From Thermosipho ferrireducens (lineage in GTDB: Bacteria; Thermotogota; Thermotogae; Thermotogales; Fervidobacteriaceae): a stretch of 64,000 bases of DNA. The notes beneath the pieces are model-generated. The model was not told where the DNA came from, did not search any database, and saw only the letters and a program-made list of their open reading frames with translations. The position numbers were made by a program, and so were the translations under genes. The DNA lies in contig NZ_CP071446.1 in the NCBI RefSeq assembly GCF_017358165.1, forward strand, positions 310,001 through 374,000, written 5' to 3'. Below are positions 25,152 through 36,323 of the stretch, piece after piece (within the stretch, counting starts at the first letter, position 1; each line of letters begins with the position of its first letter).

Positions 25152-27164
25152 GTGAGTAACTTATCTCGAAAAAAAGTTTTTCTATTTTTATTTCTAGCTC
25201 TTGCACTTTTTGCCGCTCTACTGTACGCCACAGGAAACGCCAAAGTAAAAGCATCTACTAAGGCAGACACAAACCCCTCAGAAAATCCGAACACTAAAGC
25301 AAACTCCAGCGTTGAAAAAACTGTAAATACTCAGGAAACAACTGATACTGTAACGAATTTGTCGCTAAATGATATCATTGTAGTCGCTGGCGGGGAGGAA
25401 GGAATATTTGTCATAGATATTAGCAATCCGAAATTTCCAAAAATTGCGAAGCATCTGAACATTGATATAGAGGCTAAAAAAATCCAATTATCAGGAAATT
25501 ATGCGTATGTTACCAACAATAAAGGAAATTTTATTATAATAGATGTCTCTAACCCGAAAAATCCCGAGAAGGCTGGACAATTTGATATTGAATATAAATA
25601 CACCAGAGGATTTTATGTATCCGGAAATTATGTATACATCGCTGATAAAAACAAGGGACTTGTAATAGTAGATGTGTCTAATAAAGAAAAACCAGTAGAA
25701 ATTGGGCAAATGGATATTCGCGATGGGGGATATGGAGTTTACGTATCTGGAAACTATGCGTATGTTATTAATCCCCGCAAGGGCCTTATAATATTTAACA
25801 TTTCTGATCCAGCAAATCCAGTGGAAGTTGGGCAACTCGGCAAGTACCTGGGAAGCAGCTTGCGTCAAATCTATGTGTCTGGAAAATATGCATATGTTGC
25901 AAATGGCTCCAAAGGTCTTGAAATAATAGATGTGTCTAATATAGAAAAACCAATAAAAGTTGGCATAATTGATACCGGAACTGCACTAAAAGTTCTGGGA
26001 ACCGGGAATTTCGCATATGTTATTGATGAAAAAGAAAATTTTGTAATAGTTGATGTGTCTGATCCAGCAAATCCAGTGAAAGTTAGTAGTTTAAAGGGCA
26101 GGAAAGGTGTTACATCAAGCAAACCATTGGATTTATATATATCCGGAAATTTTGCATACATTGTTGATAAGATAGATGATCTTTTGGTCGTTGATATATC
26201 TAATCCTGAAAATCCCGCAAAAATCGGTTCCTTAAAAAATGGTTACAGTGCAAAAGATGTATATATATCTAAAAACTACGCATACGTTGCTGATGGATTA
26301 GACGGCCTTTTAGTACTGGACGTATCCAATCCAAAAAAACCTGTGAAAGTTAGTCGTTTTGATACGAAAGGGAATGCACGAAGAGTTTACATATCTGGAA
26401 AATATGCATATATCGCTGATGGTTACGAGGGCCTTGTAATAACAGATGTGTCCAATCCAAAAATGCCGAAAAAAGTAGGACATTTTCGCACTGACGATTA
26501 TGCATGGGACGTTTACGTGGTCGGAAAATATGCATATGTTGCTGCCGATGATAATGGCCTTGTAATAATAGATGTGTCTAATCCAGCAAATCCGGTGAAA
26601 GTAGGGGAAGTAAGAACAGGATATGATGCTTTAGGGGTCTATGTAGATGAAAAATACGCATATATTGCCAATTTCGATAATGGCCTTGTAATAGTAGATG
26701 TGTCTAACCCTTCGTATCCCTTCCAGATTGGAAAATATGATACTTATGGATGGTCATATGGAGTCTATGTCGACGAAAAAAGGCGTGCATATGTTGCCGA
26801 TGATGACAATGGCCTTGTAATAATAGATGTGTCCAATCCAGCAAATCCGGTAAAAATCGGATACTGGAATGATTATGGAGGCGCAAAAAAGGTCCGTATA
26901 CTTGGAAAGTATGCATACATTGCAAGTGGGCGTGCAGGACTTGTGATACTGGATGTATCCAATCCCAAAAAGCCTGTGAAAGTTAGCCGTTTTGATACAG
27001 ACGGAGAAGCAAAAAGTCTCTATGTATCTGAAAAGTATGTATACATTGCCGATGATAGTAATGGTCTTGTTATATTAGATGTATCCAACGTAAAGTCACC
27101 ATCTCTTGTTCTGGATATGCCCTGGTTGAATCTCTATGGAGTATCTGGAGCACCTGGCTTTTAA
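25152..27164 (+). CDS. Exported LVIVD-repeat protein, predicted double seven-bladed beta-propeller
   Basis: 670 residues: N-terminal hydrophobic helix (VFLFLFLALALFAALLYA), a Lys/Thr/Asn-rich linker to about residue 70, and then 14 tandem repeats of about 42 residues. Each repeat carries a motif like GLVIIDVSNPANPVKVG followed by a YVSGNYAYVAD segment. This is the LVIVD repeat found in bacterial and archaeal surface proteins. Fourteen repeats fit two seven-bladed propellers. Several repeats are very alike (8 and 13 share NPKKPVKVSRFDT; 10 and 12 share DVSNPANPVK), pointing to internal duplication. No catalytic or cell-wall-anchor motif and no lipobox are seen. Probably displayed outside the inner membrane for binding. 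Starts at GTG behind AAAGGAGG, single-gene unit with a terminator. Confidence 0.85.
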   Translation: MSNLSRKKVFLFLFLALALFAALLYATGNAKVKASTKADTNPSENPNTKANSSVEKTVNTQETTDTVTNLSLNDIIVVAGGEEGIFVIDISNPKFPKIAKHLNIDIEAKKIQLSGNYAYVTNNKGNFIIIDVSNPKNPEKAGQFDIEYKYTRGFYVSGNYVYIADKNKGLVIVDVSNKEKPVEIGQMDIRDGGYGVYVSGNYAYVINPRKGLIIFNISDPANPVEVGQLGKYLGSSLRQIYVSGKYAYVANGSKGLEIIDVSNIEKPIKVGIIDTGTALKVLGTGNFAYVIDEKENFVIVDVSDPANPVKVSSLKGRKGVTSSKPLDLYISGNFAYIVDKIDDLLVVDISNPENPAKIGSLKNGYSAKDVYISKNYAYVADGLDGLLVLDVSNPKKPVKVSRFDTKGNARRVYISGKYAYIADGYEGLVITDVSNPKMPKKVGHFRTDDYAWDVYVVGKYAYVAADDNGLVIIDVSNPANPVKVGEVRTGYDALGVYVDEKYAYIANFDNGLVIVDVSNPSYPFQIGKYDTYGWSYGVYVDEKRRAYVADDDNGLVIIDVSNPANPVKIGYWNDYGGAKKVRILGKYAYIASGRAGLVILDVSNPKKPVKVSRFDTDGEAKSLYVSEKYVYIADDSNGLVILDVSNVKSPSLVLDMPWLNLYGVSGAPGF

Positions 27165-30378: not shown

Positions 30379-31521
30379 TTAGCTTAACAGAATCAAAAAG
30401 ACCTTATTAAATACCACCATTCCAAGCAAAGCAAAAGGATACGTTGCTCCATATCCAGCTACTACTTCTTCGGAATCATTCGCATCAATGGCGGCGCCCA
30501 ATCCTGGTGTACTTGTCATTCCACCACAAACTGCCCCTGATAATATTATCCAGTTCATTTTAAATATGTATCTCCCTATTAAATAACCAACAAAAATAGA
30601 AGCAAAAGCTATTATCAGTGAAAACAACATCAACATAAACGTGCTAAAATTTAAAGTGGTAAATGTCCTGTACCCTGATTTTAATCCCACCGAAGCTAAA
30701 AACATTAATAAGCCAAATTCCTGAAATATTTTTAAAACTCTGTAATTCATTCTAAAATCAAAGATCCAGAGCTTACCAGCAGCCCCTAAAATTAAAGATG
30801 ATAACAATACCCCTCCTGTTATTCCAAGATTAAAATTGATTCCAGCACCTATATTTATTTTCCCAACCAATATTCCTGTAATAATAACAAACATATACGA
30901 TATAAAATCAAAACCAGTGTTATCATCCTTATAAAAAACCGATTTTGCAAGTAAATTTTCTTTTTCTTTTTTTATGTCTATTTTAAAGATAACAGGAATA
31001 AAGTACATAGCAAAAATCACAGCTAAAACTCCCGGTATGTATCCTATAGAATAGCCGTAGGTAATACTTGTTTGAAATTCCGGGGCGCTTTCTATAGCAG
31101 TCGCCAGCCCCGGAGAACTGGTAAGTGCTCCAGAATAGATACCTATAAAATTGTACTTATTCTCATAAAACGTTGATAAAAAATATGTACCAATAAATCC
31201 GAAAAATGTTATGAAAAACGCTATCATCATAAATTTAACTCCAAACCTTTTTACAATTTCTTTTATATTTTTTGAGGCTATTAATCCCACCGAAGATATA
31301 AACAATATCAACGAAAAAATAAAAAAAGTATGAAAGGTACTGTTTAAGCTGTCAACAACCTCTTGATCATTAATTCTGGTAATTATATACCATCCTATTA
31401 TTAAACCGCTAAACAGCGCTCCAGAATTTCCAAGTTTAAAATTTCCAACGCGTATTTTTCCCAATAAAATCCCTGTTAGCATTGACAAAAACAATAAGAA
31501 AAAGGGATTGTCAACTATCAA
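30379..31521 (-). CDS. AspT/YidE/SucE-family membrane transporter
   Basis: About 380 residues, ten or so membrane helices in two homologous halves, each with the duplicated family motif: GALTSSPGLATAIESA in the first half and GAVCGGMTSTPGLGAAIDA in the second. This is the AspT/YidE/YbjL family, which includes aspartate:alanine exchangers and the succinate exporter SucE1 of Corynebacterium. Central TrkA-C domains of AspT are absent, so it is a compact version. The TTG at 31521 is preferred: GGAGGGATAAAT precedes it and holds the sucD TAA stop. As third gene behind a cobalamin riboswitch and sucCD, succinate or another dicarboxylate is the most plausible substrate (inference). Confidence 0.75.
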   Translation of the reverse strand: MIVDNPFFLLFLSMLTGILLGKIRVGNFKLGNSGALFSGLIIGWYIITRINDQEVVDSLNSTFHTFFIFSLILFISSVGLIASKNIKEIVKRFGVKFMMIAFFITFFGFIGTYFLSTFYENKYNFIGIYSGALTSSPGLATAIESAPEFQTSITYGYSIGYIPGVLAVIFAMYFIPVIFKIDIKKEKENLLAKSVFYKDDNTGFDFISYMFVIITGILVGKINIGAGINFNLGITGGVLLSSLILGAAGKLWIFDFRMNYRVLKIFQEFGLLMFLASVGLKSGYRTFTTLNFSTFMLMLFSLIIAFASIFVGYLIGRYIFKMNWIILSGAVCGGMTSTPGLGAAIDANDSEEVVAGYGATYPFALLGMVVFNKVFLILLS

Positions 31522-31523
31522 AT

Positions 31524-32369
31524 TTATCCCTCCCATGCAAGTTCCGGTATTTTCTTTGCCACTTTTACACCTAAAGTTTTCAAACTTTTCTCTTTGTATT
31601 CTATACTTCCTCTATACCCTTCAACTATAGCACCTGCATGCCCCATTCTTTTTCCATGTGGAGCAGTCCTTCCTGCAAAAAACACCCTTATTTCTCCATC
31701 ATAACCCTTATTTAATATATACTCAATTCCCTTTATTTCATCCAGACCTCCAACTTCGCTTATTATAACTACCTTTTTTATACTTTCTTCCATTATATAA
31801 TCTAAAGCTTCTGAAAAAGATGTACCTATAATAGGATCTCCTCCCAACCCTATTCCTATTTTTATTCCCGTAGAATACAAAGACAAATAATTTGATATTT
31901 CGTACATTAATGTCCCACTCCTTGATATTACCGCAATATCCCCTGGTTTAAAAGCATTTTCAGGCATTATTCCAACTTTTGAAACTCCTGGCAAAATAAT
32001 CCCCGGACAATTTGGTCCTATTATTCTTACATTATTATCTCGTGCTTTTTTATATATATCAAGCATATCATGTTGCGGAATATGTTCTGTGATTATAACT
32101 ATCTTCTTTACGCCAGCATCTATAGCCTCAAATACTGCTTCTTTTGCATACAAGGCTGGCACGAATACAACTGAAGTATCTATATCATATTTTACAATCG
32201 CTTCCTCCATACTGTTTAACACTTCCACTCCACACACATTATCAACTTTTTTGTTTTTAGAAACGCCGCATAATATATTTGTTCCATATTTTAACATTTT
32301 TTCTGTATGTAATCTTCCATATTTTCCAGTTATCCCCTGCACACAGACTTTTTCTTTTCCATTAATCAT
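31524..32369 (-). CDS. sucD: Succinyl-CoA synthetase alpha-subunit-like protein
   Basis: 281 residues. CVQGITGKYGRLHTEKMLKYG is the CoA-binding Rossmann start, RIIGPNCPGIILPG and ISRSGTLMYEI the conserved alpha-subunit core, and the phosphorylated His lies in RMGHAGAIVEG. The enzyme interconverts succinyl-CoA plus NDP/Pi and succinate plus NTP. ATG 32369 overlaps the sucC stop by 4 bases. No other citrate-cycle gene is nearby. Other acid-thiol ligases (malate-CoA ligase, propionyl-CoA synthetase) use similar subunits, so substrate is assigned with moderate confidence. Confidence 0.85.
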   Translation of the reverse strand: MINGKEKVCVQGITGKYGRLHTEKMLKYGTNILCGVSKNKKVDNVCGVEVLNSMEEAIVKYDIDTSVVFVPALYAKEAVFEAIDAGVKKIVIITEHIPQHDMLDIYKKARDNNVRIIGPNCPGIILPGVSKVGIMPENAFKPGDIAVISRSGTLMYEISNYLSLYSTGIKIGIGLGGDPIIGTSFSEALDYIMEESIKKVVIISEVGGLDEIKGIEYILNKGYDGEIRVFFAGRTAPHGKRMGHAGAIVEGYRGSIEYKEKSLKTLGVKVAKKIPELAWEG

Positions 32370-33385
32370 CTGTCTCCCCCCTTTACCGCTTCCAGAATCA
32401 TAGAATACATATCCTCATAATAACCTATATGATTTCTTCTCAATATTCTCTTTGCCTCATGCTCATTTGTTCCCGTCAATCTTGCGTAAAGTTGAACTTC
32501 CGGATTTTCTTTTTTAAACTTAACTATTCCAGATGCTATTTCATCACATCGGGTGATTCCTCCAAATATGTTCAGCACTATTTTTTTTATTCCACAACTT
32601 TTCAATAGATTCAACGCTTCAATGGTTATGTCTTTTTCTGCTCCGCCACCGAGATCCAGAAAGTCTGCTGGTTCTCCACCGGCCAGCTTTATAGCATCCA
32701 TTGTCGCCATAACGATTCCCGCTCCACAACCTATTATTCCAATATTACCACTTAATCTTACAAAATGAAATGGATATTTATTCATCACAAACTCTTCTGC
32801 CCATTTTTGTCTAAATATCGCATTATCATCCAGATGCATCACAACATCAAGGGCATATATTTCACCTTTATCATTTTCAGCCAACGGATTTATTTCCAGT
32901 AATGTAAGATCTTTTTCTTTGAATAATTCCCCCAATTTTAGAAGAACTGTTTGTATCTTATCTGGAATAATATTTCCGAAAGTTTCAAAGTCAGTTTTAA
33001 TTACATTTTCCTTGTTTTTTTCTATATCTATACCTCCGTTTTCAGAAAATAGAATAATCACATCTCTTTCTTCTCTATCCAAGACCAGAGAAATGTAATA
33101 CTCTTTTCTCACAGCTACCCTTTCTTCAACAAGAACACCGTAAGGTTTTTCTCCCTTTATTTTTTTGTTCAATAGCGTATTTACATGTTTAAAAAATTCT
33201 TCTTCTGTTCTTGCAAAAAGCACTCCTCCAGCCTTCATTCGCCCACCAACTAAAACTTGAGATTTTAAAACAGCTGGTAAAAACTGAATTTTCACCTCTT
33301 TTTCTCTCTGAATAAGGTATGAATCTGGAACCTTAATTCCATAATCCTTCAAAATCCCTTTTCCAACGAACTCATGAACTTTCAT
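32366..33385 (-). CDS. sucC: Succinyl-CoA synthetase beta-subunit-like protein
   Basis: 339 residues with the ATP-grasp domain (MKVHEFVGKGILKDYGI at the start, VLKSQVLVGGRMKAGGV, LTLLEINPLAEND) and the C-terminal ligase domain (EPADFLDLGGGAEKD, NIFGGITRCDEIA). It is about 45 residues shorter than typical SucC (near 388). ATG 33385 follows AAGGAGGTGGATT; a longer frame from 33415 has no ribosome site and runs into the riboswitch expression region. First gene behind the cobalamin riboswitch, so the whole sucC-sucD-transporter operon should be turned down by coenzyme B12. Confidence 0.85.
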   Translation of the reverse strand: MKVHEFVGKGILKDYGIKVPDSYLIQREKEVKIQFLPAVLKSQVLVGGRMKAGGVLFARTEEEFFKHVNTLLNKKIKGEKPYGVLVEERVAVRKEYYISLVLDREERDVIILFSENGGIDIEKNKENVIKTDFETFGNIIPDKIQTVLLKLGELFKEKDLTLLEINPLAENDKGEIYALDVVMHLDDNAIFRQKWAEEFVMNKYPFHFVRLSGNIGIIGCGAGIVMATMDAIKLAGGEPADFLDLGGGAEKDITIEALNLLKSCGIKKIVLNIFGGITRCDEIASGIVKFKKENPEVQLYARLTGTNEHEAKRILRRNHIGYYEDMYSMILEAVKGGDR

Positions 33386-33414
33386 AATCCACCTCCTTAA
33401 AAAATATAAAATCA

Positions 33415-33439
33415 TCCCATTTCACCCTCGAAAATGGGA
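33415..33439 (-). promoter_or_regulatory. Expression-platform hairpin of the cobalamin riboswitch
   Basis: On the minus strand TCCCATTT / AAATGGGA form an 8-base-pair stem with a 9-base loop, just 3' of the aptamer P1 stem, followed by TGATTTTATATTTTTT and then the sucC ribosome site. It looks like an imperfect intrinsic terminator that would act when cobalamin closes the aptamer. Confidence 0.55.
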
Positions 33440-33446
33440 CTTCCCT

Positions 33447-33605
33447 GGAATTAAAGGCAGGTCTCCCGGCTTCTGGATCATCCTACTCCCAACGCCTTCC
33501 CGGGTTTCCCCAGTGGCCTCCTGTTGGTTTCGTCCCCAGTTACGGTGGCGGGGCCGCGCCGGATTTTCACCGGCTTCCCTTTTAAGATTACTCACCTTTA
33601 ATTCC
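33447..33605 (-). ncRNA. Cobalamin (adenosylcobalamin) riboswitch
   Basis: Minus-strand RNA with all main class marks: closing P1 stem GGAATTAAAGG (33605-33595) with CCTTTAATTCC (33457-33447), the segment GAAGCCGGTGAAAATCCGGC, GCGGCCCCGCCACCGT, and the B12 box AGAAGCCGGGAGACCTGCC near the 3' end. Cobalamin riboswitches usually lower expression when the ligand is present. The next gene is sucC, 62 bases after the aptamer, with a terminator-like hairpin between. The 110 bases between nrdG and this aptamer hold AT-rich promoter-like hexamers (TATAAT, TAGAAT) but no clear -35. Confidence 0.95.
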
Positions 33606-33721
33606 GGAGGTATTTAATTTTTCTTATGACTCTCCATAACTTATACATTATTCTAACAGAACTTTTCGAAAAATTATACCCATGCTAAATTATTCTATTG
33701 TGAAATATTCCGGGATAAACA

Positions 33722-34369
33722 TTATCTAAAAATCAATCTTTTTATTTTCATCCTTTTACTTCTTCTACTTTTTATTTTGAATATTTCCGTAGAGTTTGCA
33801 ACAGTAATATATGCCCTTTCACCTTCAACTAAAAACTCTTCAAAAAAATCTATGTCATCCTGTGATGAAAGACCTGGAACATATGTCATCCTAAATTCAT
33901 ATTCTATGTTAGATGTTCTCAAAATTTTTATCGTTTCTGATATACTTTCCCAGTAACGGCCATACACATTTACCAACCTGCTATAATTTTCAGGCTTAGC
34001 TTTAATGTCTACTGCCACATAATCTATCAGATTTTGTTCAATTAATTTATAAATCATATCCGGGTTCGTACCATTTGTATCGATTTTTATCATATATTCC
34101 ATGTCTTTTACCTGTTTTACAAACTCTATTAAATCATTATGTATTGTTGGCTCACCACCAGTAATACATACTGCACTTATTCTTGCCCTTAAAAATTTTA
34201 ACCTGTCCAACATCTCATCTTCAGAGATTACTTTATATTCATTTGCATATGCTATTTTCCAATTATGACACCATTGACATCTAAAATTACAGCCGCCTGT
34301 ATAAACAACGGAAGATATTCTTCTAGGATAATCTACAAAACTGAAAGTTCTAATACCGGCCAGAATCAT
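33722..34369 (-). CDS. nrdG: Anaerobic ribonucleotide reductase-activating protein (radical SAM)
   Basis: 215-residue radical SAM enzyme that generates the glycyl radical on NrdD. The cluster motif is GGCNFRCQWCHNW (CxxxCxxC) and the SAM-binding segment CITGGEPTIH. It is the longer type resembling pyruvate formate-lyase activases. ATG 34369 is chosen: AAAAAGGTGA, which contains the nrdD stop, is its ribosome site, and the GTG at 34378 lies inside it. Together with nrdD it supplies deoxynucleotides without oxygen. Confidence 0.9.
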   Translation of the reverse strand: MILAGIRTFSFVDYPRRISSVVYTGGCNFRCQWCHNWKIAYANEYKVISEDEMLDRLKFLRARISAVCITGGEPTIHNDLIEFVKQVKDMEYMIKIDTNGTNPDMIYKLIEQNLIDYVAVDIKAKPENYSRLVNVYGRYWESISETIKILRTSNIEYEFRMTYVPGLSSQDDIDFFEEFLVEGERAYITVANSTEIFKIKSRRSKRMKIKRLIFR

Positions 34370-34374
34370 ATAAT

Positions 34375-36249
34375 TCACCTTTTTAAAGTCGCATTATCAA
34401 ATTTAAACTGTATTCTTTCATAGTATTCCTGCTGTTTCCCATCATTCCAATTCTGTACCGGTCTATAATATCCAACAACTCTTGAATAAACTTCTGTTTC
34501 TTTTCCACAGTATGGACACTTAAAATACTCACCGGTTATATAGCCATGCTCAAGGCAAATTGAAAATGTAGGTGTTATACTCATATAAGGTAAGGAATAA
34601 TTCTCAAAACTATACTGGATAAATTCTTTTAAAGTTTCTGGATCGGTAATTTTTTCCCCAACATAAATATGTACAACTGTCCCTCCAGTCCATCTGTTTT
34701 GCAACCCTTCTTGATGCTCCAGTAAATCAAAAGGATCTTCAAAATAATTCACAGGAGGATGTACTGAATTTGTATAATATGGCTTTTCGTCTGTTCCCGC
34801 ATGTTTTATTAAGCTACCAAATTCTTTTTTATCCAATTTCGCAAGTCTATAACTTGCTCCCTCCGCAGGTGATGCTTCTAAATTGTACAAATTTCCCGTT
34901 TCCCTACTGAACTCATCTAACTTAGCCAACATATAATCCATAATTTCCTGAGCAAACTTTTTCCCATTCATCGACACTATACCTTCCTGGATCCCAAAAT
35001 TAACAAGACCCTCATGCATCCCAACAAGTCCTATTGTAGAGAAATGATTAGCCCAGTACTGTCCTGTTAACCTATAAACGCTATCCAGATACACTTTTGT
35101 ATACGGATATAACCCTTTTTTAGTCCAATTTTCAATGTAAATCCTTTTAATTTCCAGAGCTTCTTTTGCAACATTCATTACTTCGTCCAATATACTATAA
35201 AATCTATTTACATTTCCCTTTGAAAGAAACATTATCCTTGGAATATTAATAGTAACAACACCTATTGAACCCGTTAAAGGATTCGAAGCAAACAAGCTTC
35301 CTCGTCTTTTTATTACTATATTGCCATCTTCACCGTTATTTTCCGTTGTAAAACCATACGAAAGTTCCTTTAAATGCTCCAGCACCTGCCTGTTATCAAG
35401 CTTTAAACGACAGCACATTGACCTCGCATCCTCCGGTTTCATATCAGAATTAATATAATTTGCAAAATATGGTGTTCCATATTTCATTGTCATAAGGATG
35501 ATCATATTCGCAACTTCACTATCCCATTTAAAATTTCTTGTAATATTATAAGTTGGTATAGGAAATGAGAAAGGTCTTCCATTATAATCACCCTCAAGCA
35601 TAATTTCCACAAATGCTTTATTTAAAATGTCCATTTCTTTTTGAAACTCAGAATACGTTTCCTTTTGCTCCTCCCCGCCAATAATTACATGTTTATTTCT
35701 GTGAGTCGAAGGAACCGTTAAATCCATTGTAATGTTACTGAAGGGAGATTGAAAACCTACCCTTGTTGGAACATTCATATTAAAAATAAACTCCTGCAAT
35801 GCCTGTTTTACTTCATAATAATTAAGATTATCATACCTTATAAAAGGGGCAAGTAATGTATCAAAATTTGAAAACGCAACGGCACCAGCAGTTTCCCCCT
35901 GCAACGTGTATAAAAAATTAACAATCTGACCCAGAGCAGTTCTAAAATGTTTAGCAGGGCCTGATGCAACTTTCCCGGAAACTCCGTTAAATCCTTTTCT
36001 CAATAACTCCTCAAGGTCCCAGCCAACACAATATGAAGCCAAAACCCCCAGATCATGGATATGTATAAAACCCTTTATGTAATATTCTTTAATTTTTTTA
36101 TTGTACCTGTCGTAAATTTCTTCCAGCCAGAATCTTTTTATTACCTCCTGATAAATATGATTGTTTAATCCCTGCAAAGAGTACTGCATATTTGAATTTT
36201 CTCTTACTTTCCAATCATTATCATTAATATAATCATAAACTAAACGCAT
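34375..36249 (-). CDS. nrdD: Anaerobic (class III) ribonucleoside-triphosphate reductase
   Basis: 624-residue glycyl-radical enzyme. Conserved segments include HIHDLGVLASYCVGWDLEEL, GGTVVHIYVGEK and, near the C-terminus, a zinc site (CLEHGYITGEYFKCPYCG, arranged CxxH-CxxC) followed by the glycyl-radical loop RVVGYYRP. No N-terminal ATP-cone is evident; the protein begins MRLVYDYINDNDW. ATG 36249 follows GAGGGGGGAAGAAA; an upstream frame from 36294 crosses a predicted operator and is rejected. Two NrdR-like boxes lie just upstream. nrdG is 5 bases on. Confidence 0.94.
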   Translation of the reverse strand: MRLVYDYINDNDWKVRENSNMQYSLQGLNNHIYQEVIKRFWLEEIYDRYNKKIKEYYIKGFIHIHDLGVLASYCVGWDLEELLRKGFNGVSGKVASGPAKHFRTALGQIVNFLYTLQGETAGAVAFSNFDTLLAPFIRYDNLNYYEVKQALQEFIFNMNVPTRVGFQSPFSNITMDLTVPSTHRNKHVIIGGEEQKETYSEFQKEMDILNKAFVEIMLEGDYNGRPFSFPIPTYNITRNFKWDSEVANMIILMTMKYGTPYFANYINSDMKPEDARSMCCRLKLDNRQVLEHLKELSYGFTTENNGEDGNIVIKRRGSLFASNPLTGSIGVVTINIPRIMFLSKGNVNRFYSILDEVMNVAKEALEIKRIYIENWTKKGLYPYTKVYLDSVYRLTGQYWANHFSTIGLVGMHEGLVNFGIQEGIVSMNGKKFAQEIMDYMLAKLDEFSRETGNLYNLEASPAEGASYRLAKLDKKEFGSLIKHAGTDEKPYYTNSVHPPVNYFEDPFDLLEHQEGLQNRWTGGTVVHIYVGEKITDPETLKEFIQYSFENYSLPYMSITPTFSICLEHGYITGEYFKCPYCGKETEVYSRVVGYYRPVQNWNDGKQQEYYERIQFKFDNATLKR

Positions 36250-36275
36250 TTTCTTCCCCCCTCTTTTCAGAATTA

Positions 36276-36323
36276 CCACAACATATTGTATCATATTGTA
36301 TAGTTATACACAATATATAGTAT
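36276..36323 (-). promoter_or_regulatory. Pair of NrdR-like operator boxes upstream of nrdD
   Basis: On the minus strand ATACTATATATTGTGT (36323-36308) and ATACAATATGTTGTGG (36291-36276) both resemble the NrdR consensus acaCwATATaTwGtgt. Their centres are 32 bases apart, about three helical turns, the usual geometry for NrdR pairs. The proximal box ends 27 bases before the nrdD start. nrdR itself is not in this window. Confidence 0.65.

Follow-up and report, generated by a model that had tools for sequence, protein, structure and literature searches.

A cobalamin riboswitch ahead of succinyl-CoA synthetase-like genes in Thermotogota: a candidate B12-gated choice between propionate and succinate

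Known targets of cobalamin riboswitches are mostly genes for B12 supply or for B12-free isozymes, and AdoCbl is the usual ligand of the RF00174 aptamer class. A category "isozymes of B12-dependent enzymes" (PMC3766115), of the metE and nrdDG type, is named among the targets, and these riboswitches share with the locus described here the RF00174 aptamer and a gene needed when a B12 enzyme fails. sucCD differs from them in that it is no isozyme of the mutase but would drain the mutase substrate into another end product. A second point of comparison is provided by Xylanibacter, where propionate is made when cobalamin is available and succinate builds up when it is not (PMC11575231). The likeness lies in the route via a mutase and a Na+ decarboxylase and in the build-up of succinate without B12; however, in Xylanibacter no riboswitch was found near the pathway genes and succinate is derived from fumarate (PMC11575231), whereas fumarate reductase was not found in the genome studied here and the putative bypass enzyme itself is situated behind the riboswitch. 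A pairing of a cobalamin riboswitch with succinyl-CoA synthetase (SCS) was not found in the readable literature; an earlier listing is possible, e.g. in RegPrecise for Thermotogales, and the word "succinyl" is absent from the main text of PMC3766115, the supplement of which could still list such a target. To judge from that literature, the riboswitch class is known but a target of the sucCD kind is new to it.

We consider it fairly probable that the locus constitutes a B12-gated fermentation branch point, at which propionate would be formed with B12 and succinate plus ATP, via SucCD and an exporter, without it. For the wider proposal, that in a bacterial phylum a B12-sensing RNA decides whether amino acid fermentation ends in propionate or succinate, by turning on a dedicated SCS and an exporter when the mutase is without cofactor, such that flux is rerouted and the B12 enzyme is not replaced, we see the chances as evenly balanced. 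If true, the cobalamin riboswitch class would gain a target that opens another branch of central metabolism, which would broaden its logic, would explain how B12-auxotrophic anaerobes handle fluctuating B12 and would tie the vitamin B12 of a community to the acids released by Thermotogota fermenters.

The window, i.e. the whole stretch of 64,000 nucleotides that was analyzed, stems from a complete genome of 1.98 Mb (G000), which was searched family by family and read in stretches, each absence resting on a single profile. The features of the locus are collected in the table.

Table. Riboswitch, terminator and genes of the sucCD locus, in window positions
Feature	Position	Strand	Characteristics
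Cobalamin riboswitch aptamer RF00174, complete	33439..33614	(-)	122.4 bits
Intrinsic terminator hairpin, presumed expression platform	33414..33440	(-)	GTCCCATTTTCGAGGGTGAAATGGGAT, then GATTTTATATTTTTT
sucC-like, succinyl-CoA synthetase beta family, 339 aa	32366..33385	(-)	ATP-grasp_2, Ligase_CoA
sucD-like, succinyl-CoA synthetase alpha family, 281 aa	31524..32369	(-)	CoA_binding, Ligase_CoA
AspT/YidE/YbjL-family transporter, 385 aa, two Asp-Al_Ex halves	30379..31536	(-)	PF06826

The RF00174 match covers model positions 1-189 of 189 (E 3.2e-30; gathering threshold 31.5 bits) and encloses the minus-strand cobalamin aptamer that a preliminary description had placed at 33447-33605. The aptamer is predicted to bind AdoCbl, which would probably change the expression of sucC. 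The best start of this gene is the ATG at 33385, preceded by a strong ribosome site, AAGGAGGTGG; the start at 33415 offered by the ORF finder was dropped, its ATG sitting at the foot of the terminator. As the ends of sucC and sucD and those of sucD and the transporter gene overlap, the three genes probably form a single transcript. They had been described as the only genes that can follow the aptamer, which holds for these first three, but a DUF998 gene follows the transporter across a gap of 171 bases.

A hairpin with a T-run lies between aptamer and start codon in 14 of the 15 leaders examined (window included), and in 13 of the 14 leaders besides that of the window its stem has another sequence. 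The stems vary while pairing is kept (TCCCATTT/AAATGGGA, TTTCTCAATCT/AGATTGAGAAA, CCCCAAAAA/TTTTTGGGG and others). In 12 of the 14 leaders with a hairpin at most 3% of shuffled sequences score as well; for the hairpin of the window 7.5% are equal or better, the one in leader L008 is weak (44%), and a terminator of this type was not found in the leader of L105. From the recurrence of this element, the layout is predicted to be that of a transcription-terminating OFF switch.

Of the 61 genomes searched, among them G000, 20 show a match to SucC, which in three cases is a weak fragment or a decayed gene. Sixteen relatives have an undamaged sucC match, and in 14 of them an RF00174 aptamer directly precedes the gene. 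The two exceptions are G052, where sucC runs into the end of the contig, and G042, a fragmented metagenome-assembled genome (MAG) in which no riboswitch is present at sucC and no mutase was found. Intact riboswitch-sucCD operons are thus present in 15 of the genomes searched (G000 included) and in the Kosmotogales MAG L105, 16 in total; the relatives are assigned to Thermotogota because they group with L105 in the tree and by their gene content. The ligase sequences from Thermotogota form one clade with support of 100/100 in a maximum-likelihood tree, on which the riboswitch label changes twice as compared to 13.8 times in shuffles, and a cobalamin riboswitch was not found at the ligase loci of the archaeal and other relatives scanned. 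Of the riboswitch-sucCD-AspT order, which the preliminary description had suggested looking for in related genomes, the riboswitch-sucCD part recurs in 14 relatives and L105, and the arrangement is, by this conservation, more than chance. This bears on the notion that the riboswitch is unrelated to sucCD, being either a stray element or part of nrdDG: genes nrdD-nrdG for class III ribonucleotide reductase do reside upstream of the aptamer on the same strand, but the aptamer lies downstream of nrdG, and among relatives sucC is constant after the aptamer while the upstream genes vary. Such a reading is contradicted by conservation and appears barely tenable. The nrdD and nrdG2 genes (reductase and activase; 33722-36294) encode a B12-free enzyme, and their adjacency to the riboswitch is not kept in relatives.

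G011 makes up a case of its own. Here, RF00174 precedes a decayed sucC, the reading frame of which is interrupted by several stops and frameshifts (L020/L043; G011:C1, about 401.7-402.9 kb), while the aptamer is intact and very high-scoring (144.7 bits) and the adjacent AspT-type gene is still open. The genome carries cbiC and may make its own B12.

SucC reaches 282.6 bits against the NCBIfam model sucCoAbeta (TIGR01016; curated cut-off 375.55) and SucD 306.8 bits against sucCoAalpha (TIGR01019; curated cut-off 353.2); both stay below the cut-offs and the enzyme is hence named SucCD-like. Its architecture is that of an ATP-grasp/CoA-ligase beta subunit and a CoA-binding/ligase alpha subunit, and the phosphohistidine motif MGHAGAI of SucD is kept, aligned with that of SCS alpha structures. 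In SucC, a Cys replaces the usual Asn of the G-N-G-A-G loop, and the resulting GCGAG is invariant. In view of the cut-offs and the Cys, the substrate could differ from succinate: the ligase may use a different acyl-CoA that accumulates once the mutase is arrested, e.g. methylmalonyl-CoA, or else malate or a C5 dicarboxylate, with the transporter exporting the respective acid, and the finding of two unrelated transporter types in the third position (see below) would fit such a case. We nevertheless hold it to be quite improbable, since the closest solved structures are true SCS subunits (Thermus SCS beta for SucC, SCS alpha chains for SucD) and a malate-CoA ligase model scores far below the SCS model. 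The GCGAG loop is also present in some archaeal SucC relatives, which weakens the exchange of Asn for Cys as a sign of a new substrate.

The third gene had been described as encoding a SucE-type transporter. Its product matches PF06826 in two stretches (202.9 bits, cut-off 27) and TIGR01625 with 122.8 bits (cut-off 71.95), such that membership in the AspT/YidE/YbjL family stands, and it has the duplicated PF06826 membrane domain in common with Corynebacterium SucE1 and AspT exporters. AspT and SucE1 proper are expected to comprise about 540-560 aa with a middle RCK/TrkA_C region. In contrast, the protein from the window consists of 385 aa that match PF06826 alone, lacks the middle RCK-type part and remains, with 113.8 bits, far from the cut-off of 546.95 for the AspT equivalog TIGR03802. 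An AspT-type third gene is found in G000, G004, G008, G011, G014, G046, G050 and G052, while G001, G002, G005, G009, G012, G015, G016 and G017 contain a gene of the YitT type (PF02588 plus PF10035), and G046 has both consecutively. This division tracks the subclades of SucC, with YitT replacing AspT in one subclade and in roughly half of the genomes. That one slot can hold either of two unrelated membrane proteins suggests a shared, putative export task; considering the missing middle region and the YitT replacement, SucE-type succinate export by the third gene is a lead only.

Methylmalonyl-CoA mutase (MCM), the presence of which in the genome had been named as a point to check, is indeed encoded in G000 together with the rest of a Na+-pumping propionate route. 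The gene for its large subunit (L104) adjoins a pyruvate carboxylase B/OadA-like gene. A second cluster (L235) encodes an epimerase (157.5 bits, above cut-off), an MmdA-like carboxyltransferase (875 bits, under the cut-off of 999), the B12-binding MCM subunit and MeaB (both above cut-off) as well as OadG-like and biotin proteins recognized by eye. MCM is present in all 15 operon genomes, and in genus g5 its genes reside about 9-11 kb from sucCD. As MCM already occurs in 50 of the 61 genomes searched, the co-occurrence alone is statistically not strong, and since 34 of these 50 are without an intact sucC match, the putative SucCD bypass is optional. In family f2, where the riboswitch-sucCD operon is found in G024 only, gene lengths had led to the guess that a 2-oxoacid oxidoreductase adjoins the mutase; on reading, the proteins proved to be GGDEF and others.

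The gene for the Na+-pump beta subunit OAD_beta (above cut-off) adjoins genes for ferredoxin and KorA in G000, with KorB and KorC encoded elsewhere; the best model for KorB is 2-oxoglutarate oxidoreductase, under its cut-off. The oadB-ferredoxin-korA string recurs widely in other Thermotogota (L267, L272-L277, L279, L283) and ties a subunit of the Na+-pumping decarboxylase to 2-oxoglutarate oxidation. In four genomes read (G004, G008, G020, G024) it is located beside urocanase, pointing to a breakdown of glutamate and histidine via 2-oxoglutarate and succinyl-CoA to propionyl-CoA. In G024 the Na+-pump beta gene is fragmented, with urocanase on one side and the pair of ferredoxin and korA on the other (L281; G024:C1:942568-943604).

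These genes also speak to the direction of the SucCD reaction. The SCS reaction is reversible and members of the AspT family are exchangers; B12 shortage might therefore lead to import of succinate, for which SucCD would spend ATP to provide the succinyl-CoA normally made by the mutase from propionyl-CoA, and the regulatory logic would be the same, a B12-free substitute for a B12-dependent source. Yet a consumer of succinyl-CoA was not found: single-profile searches detected no MetA in G000 or any genome of the family, which led us to reject a demand from the methionine pathway, and a succinylase route to lysine was rejected for the relatives because the gene in their lysine operon is dapH, the product of which uses acetyl-CoA. 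Accordingly, there is little visible demand for making succinyl-CoA. Moreover, the 2-oxoglutarate:ferredoxin oxidoreductase (KGOR) subunits would supply it without B12, and the presence of OAD_beta and MmdA-like genes suggests that the route runs toward decarboxylation, so that we regard the import reading as unlikely. Fumarate reductase as a succinate source was likewise rejected, a single profile giving no full match to FrdA/SdhA in G000. With KGOR feeding succinyl-CoA and neither that consumer nor another succinate source detected, the useful direction would be from succinyl-CoA to succinate. Gene content thus favors the direction given in the preliminary description, whose B12-dependent succinate switch gains from the conserved riboswitch-sucCD order, the predicted OFF platform, MCM in every operon genome and the oadB-ferredoxin-korA neighborhood.

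For the branch point that we favor, the following course is conceivable. When AdoCbl is plentiful, it would bind the nascent leader, the terminator would form and sucCD and the transporter gene would be off; succinyl-CoA made from 2-oxoglutarate by the ferredoxin oxidoreductase would then be turned into propionyl-CoA by mutase, epimerase and Na+-pumping decarboxylase. Under B12 shortage, the mutase would be without cofactor and the terminator would not be favored. Since AdoCbl is both the usual ligand of the riboswitch class and the cofactor of the mutase, a low level should act on both at once, stalling the mutase and opening sucCD simultaneously. SucCD would convert succinyl-CoA to succinate, yielding one ATP (or GTP) and setting CoA free again, and the product of the third gene would export succinate or a similar dicarboxylate.

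In most of the operon genomes, the genes behind the other cobalamin riboswitches were read as well; they are btuF-btuC, cobT/cobU/cobS with neighbors or cbi genes. These names derive from inspection of the protein sequences and from similarity, and BtuF/BtuC-type domains were checked. Among the riboswitches read, sucCD is the only target besides genes for B12 uptake and synthesis. A single profile gave no CbiC in G000; among the 15 operon genomes, 12 are without it, and B12 is therefore probably imported in G000 and the operon genomes lacking CbiC.

Some gene arrangements around the operon may be added. A lysine biosynthesis operon directly follows sucCD in many relatives (L028, L029, L030, L043; L038, L040, L042) and is preceded in g5 by a lysine riboswitch of its own. 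nadC-like genes adjoin the sucCD operon in three genomes (L034, L035, L031). Elsewhere in the window (25152-27164), a 670-aa protein is encoded that contains many LVIVD-like repeats of the form YAYVADxxxGLVIVDVSNPxxPVKVG.
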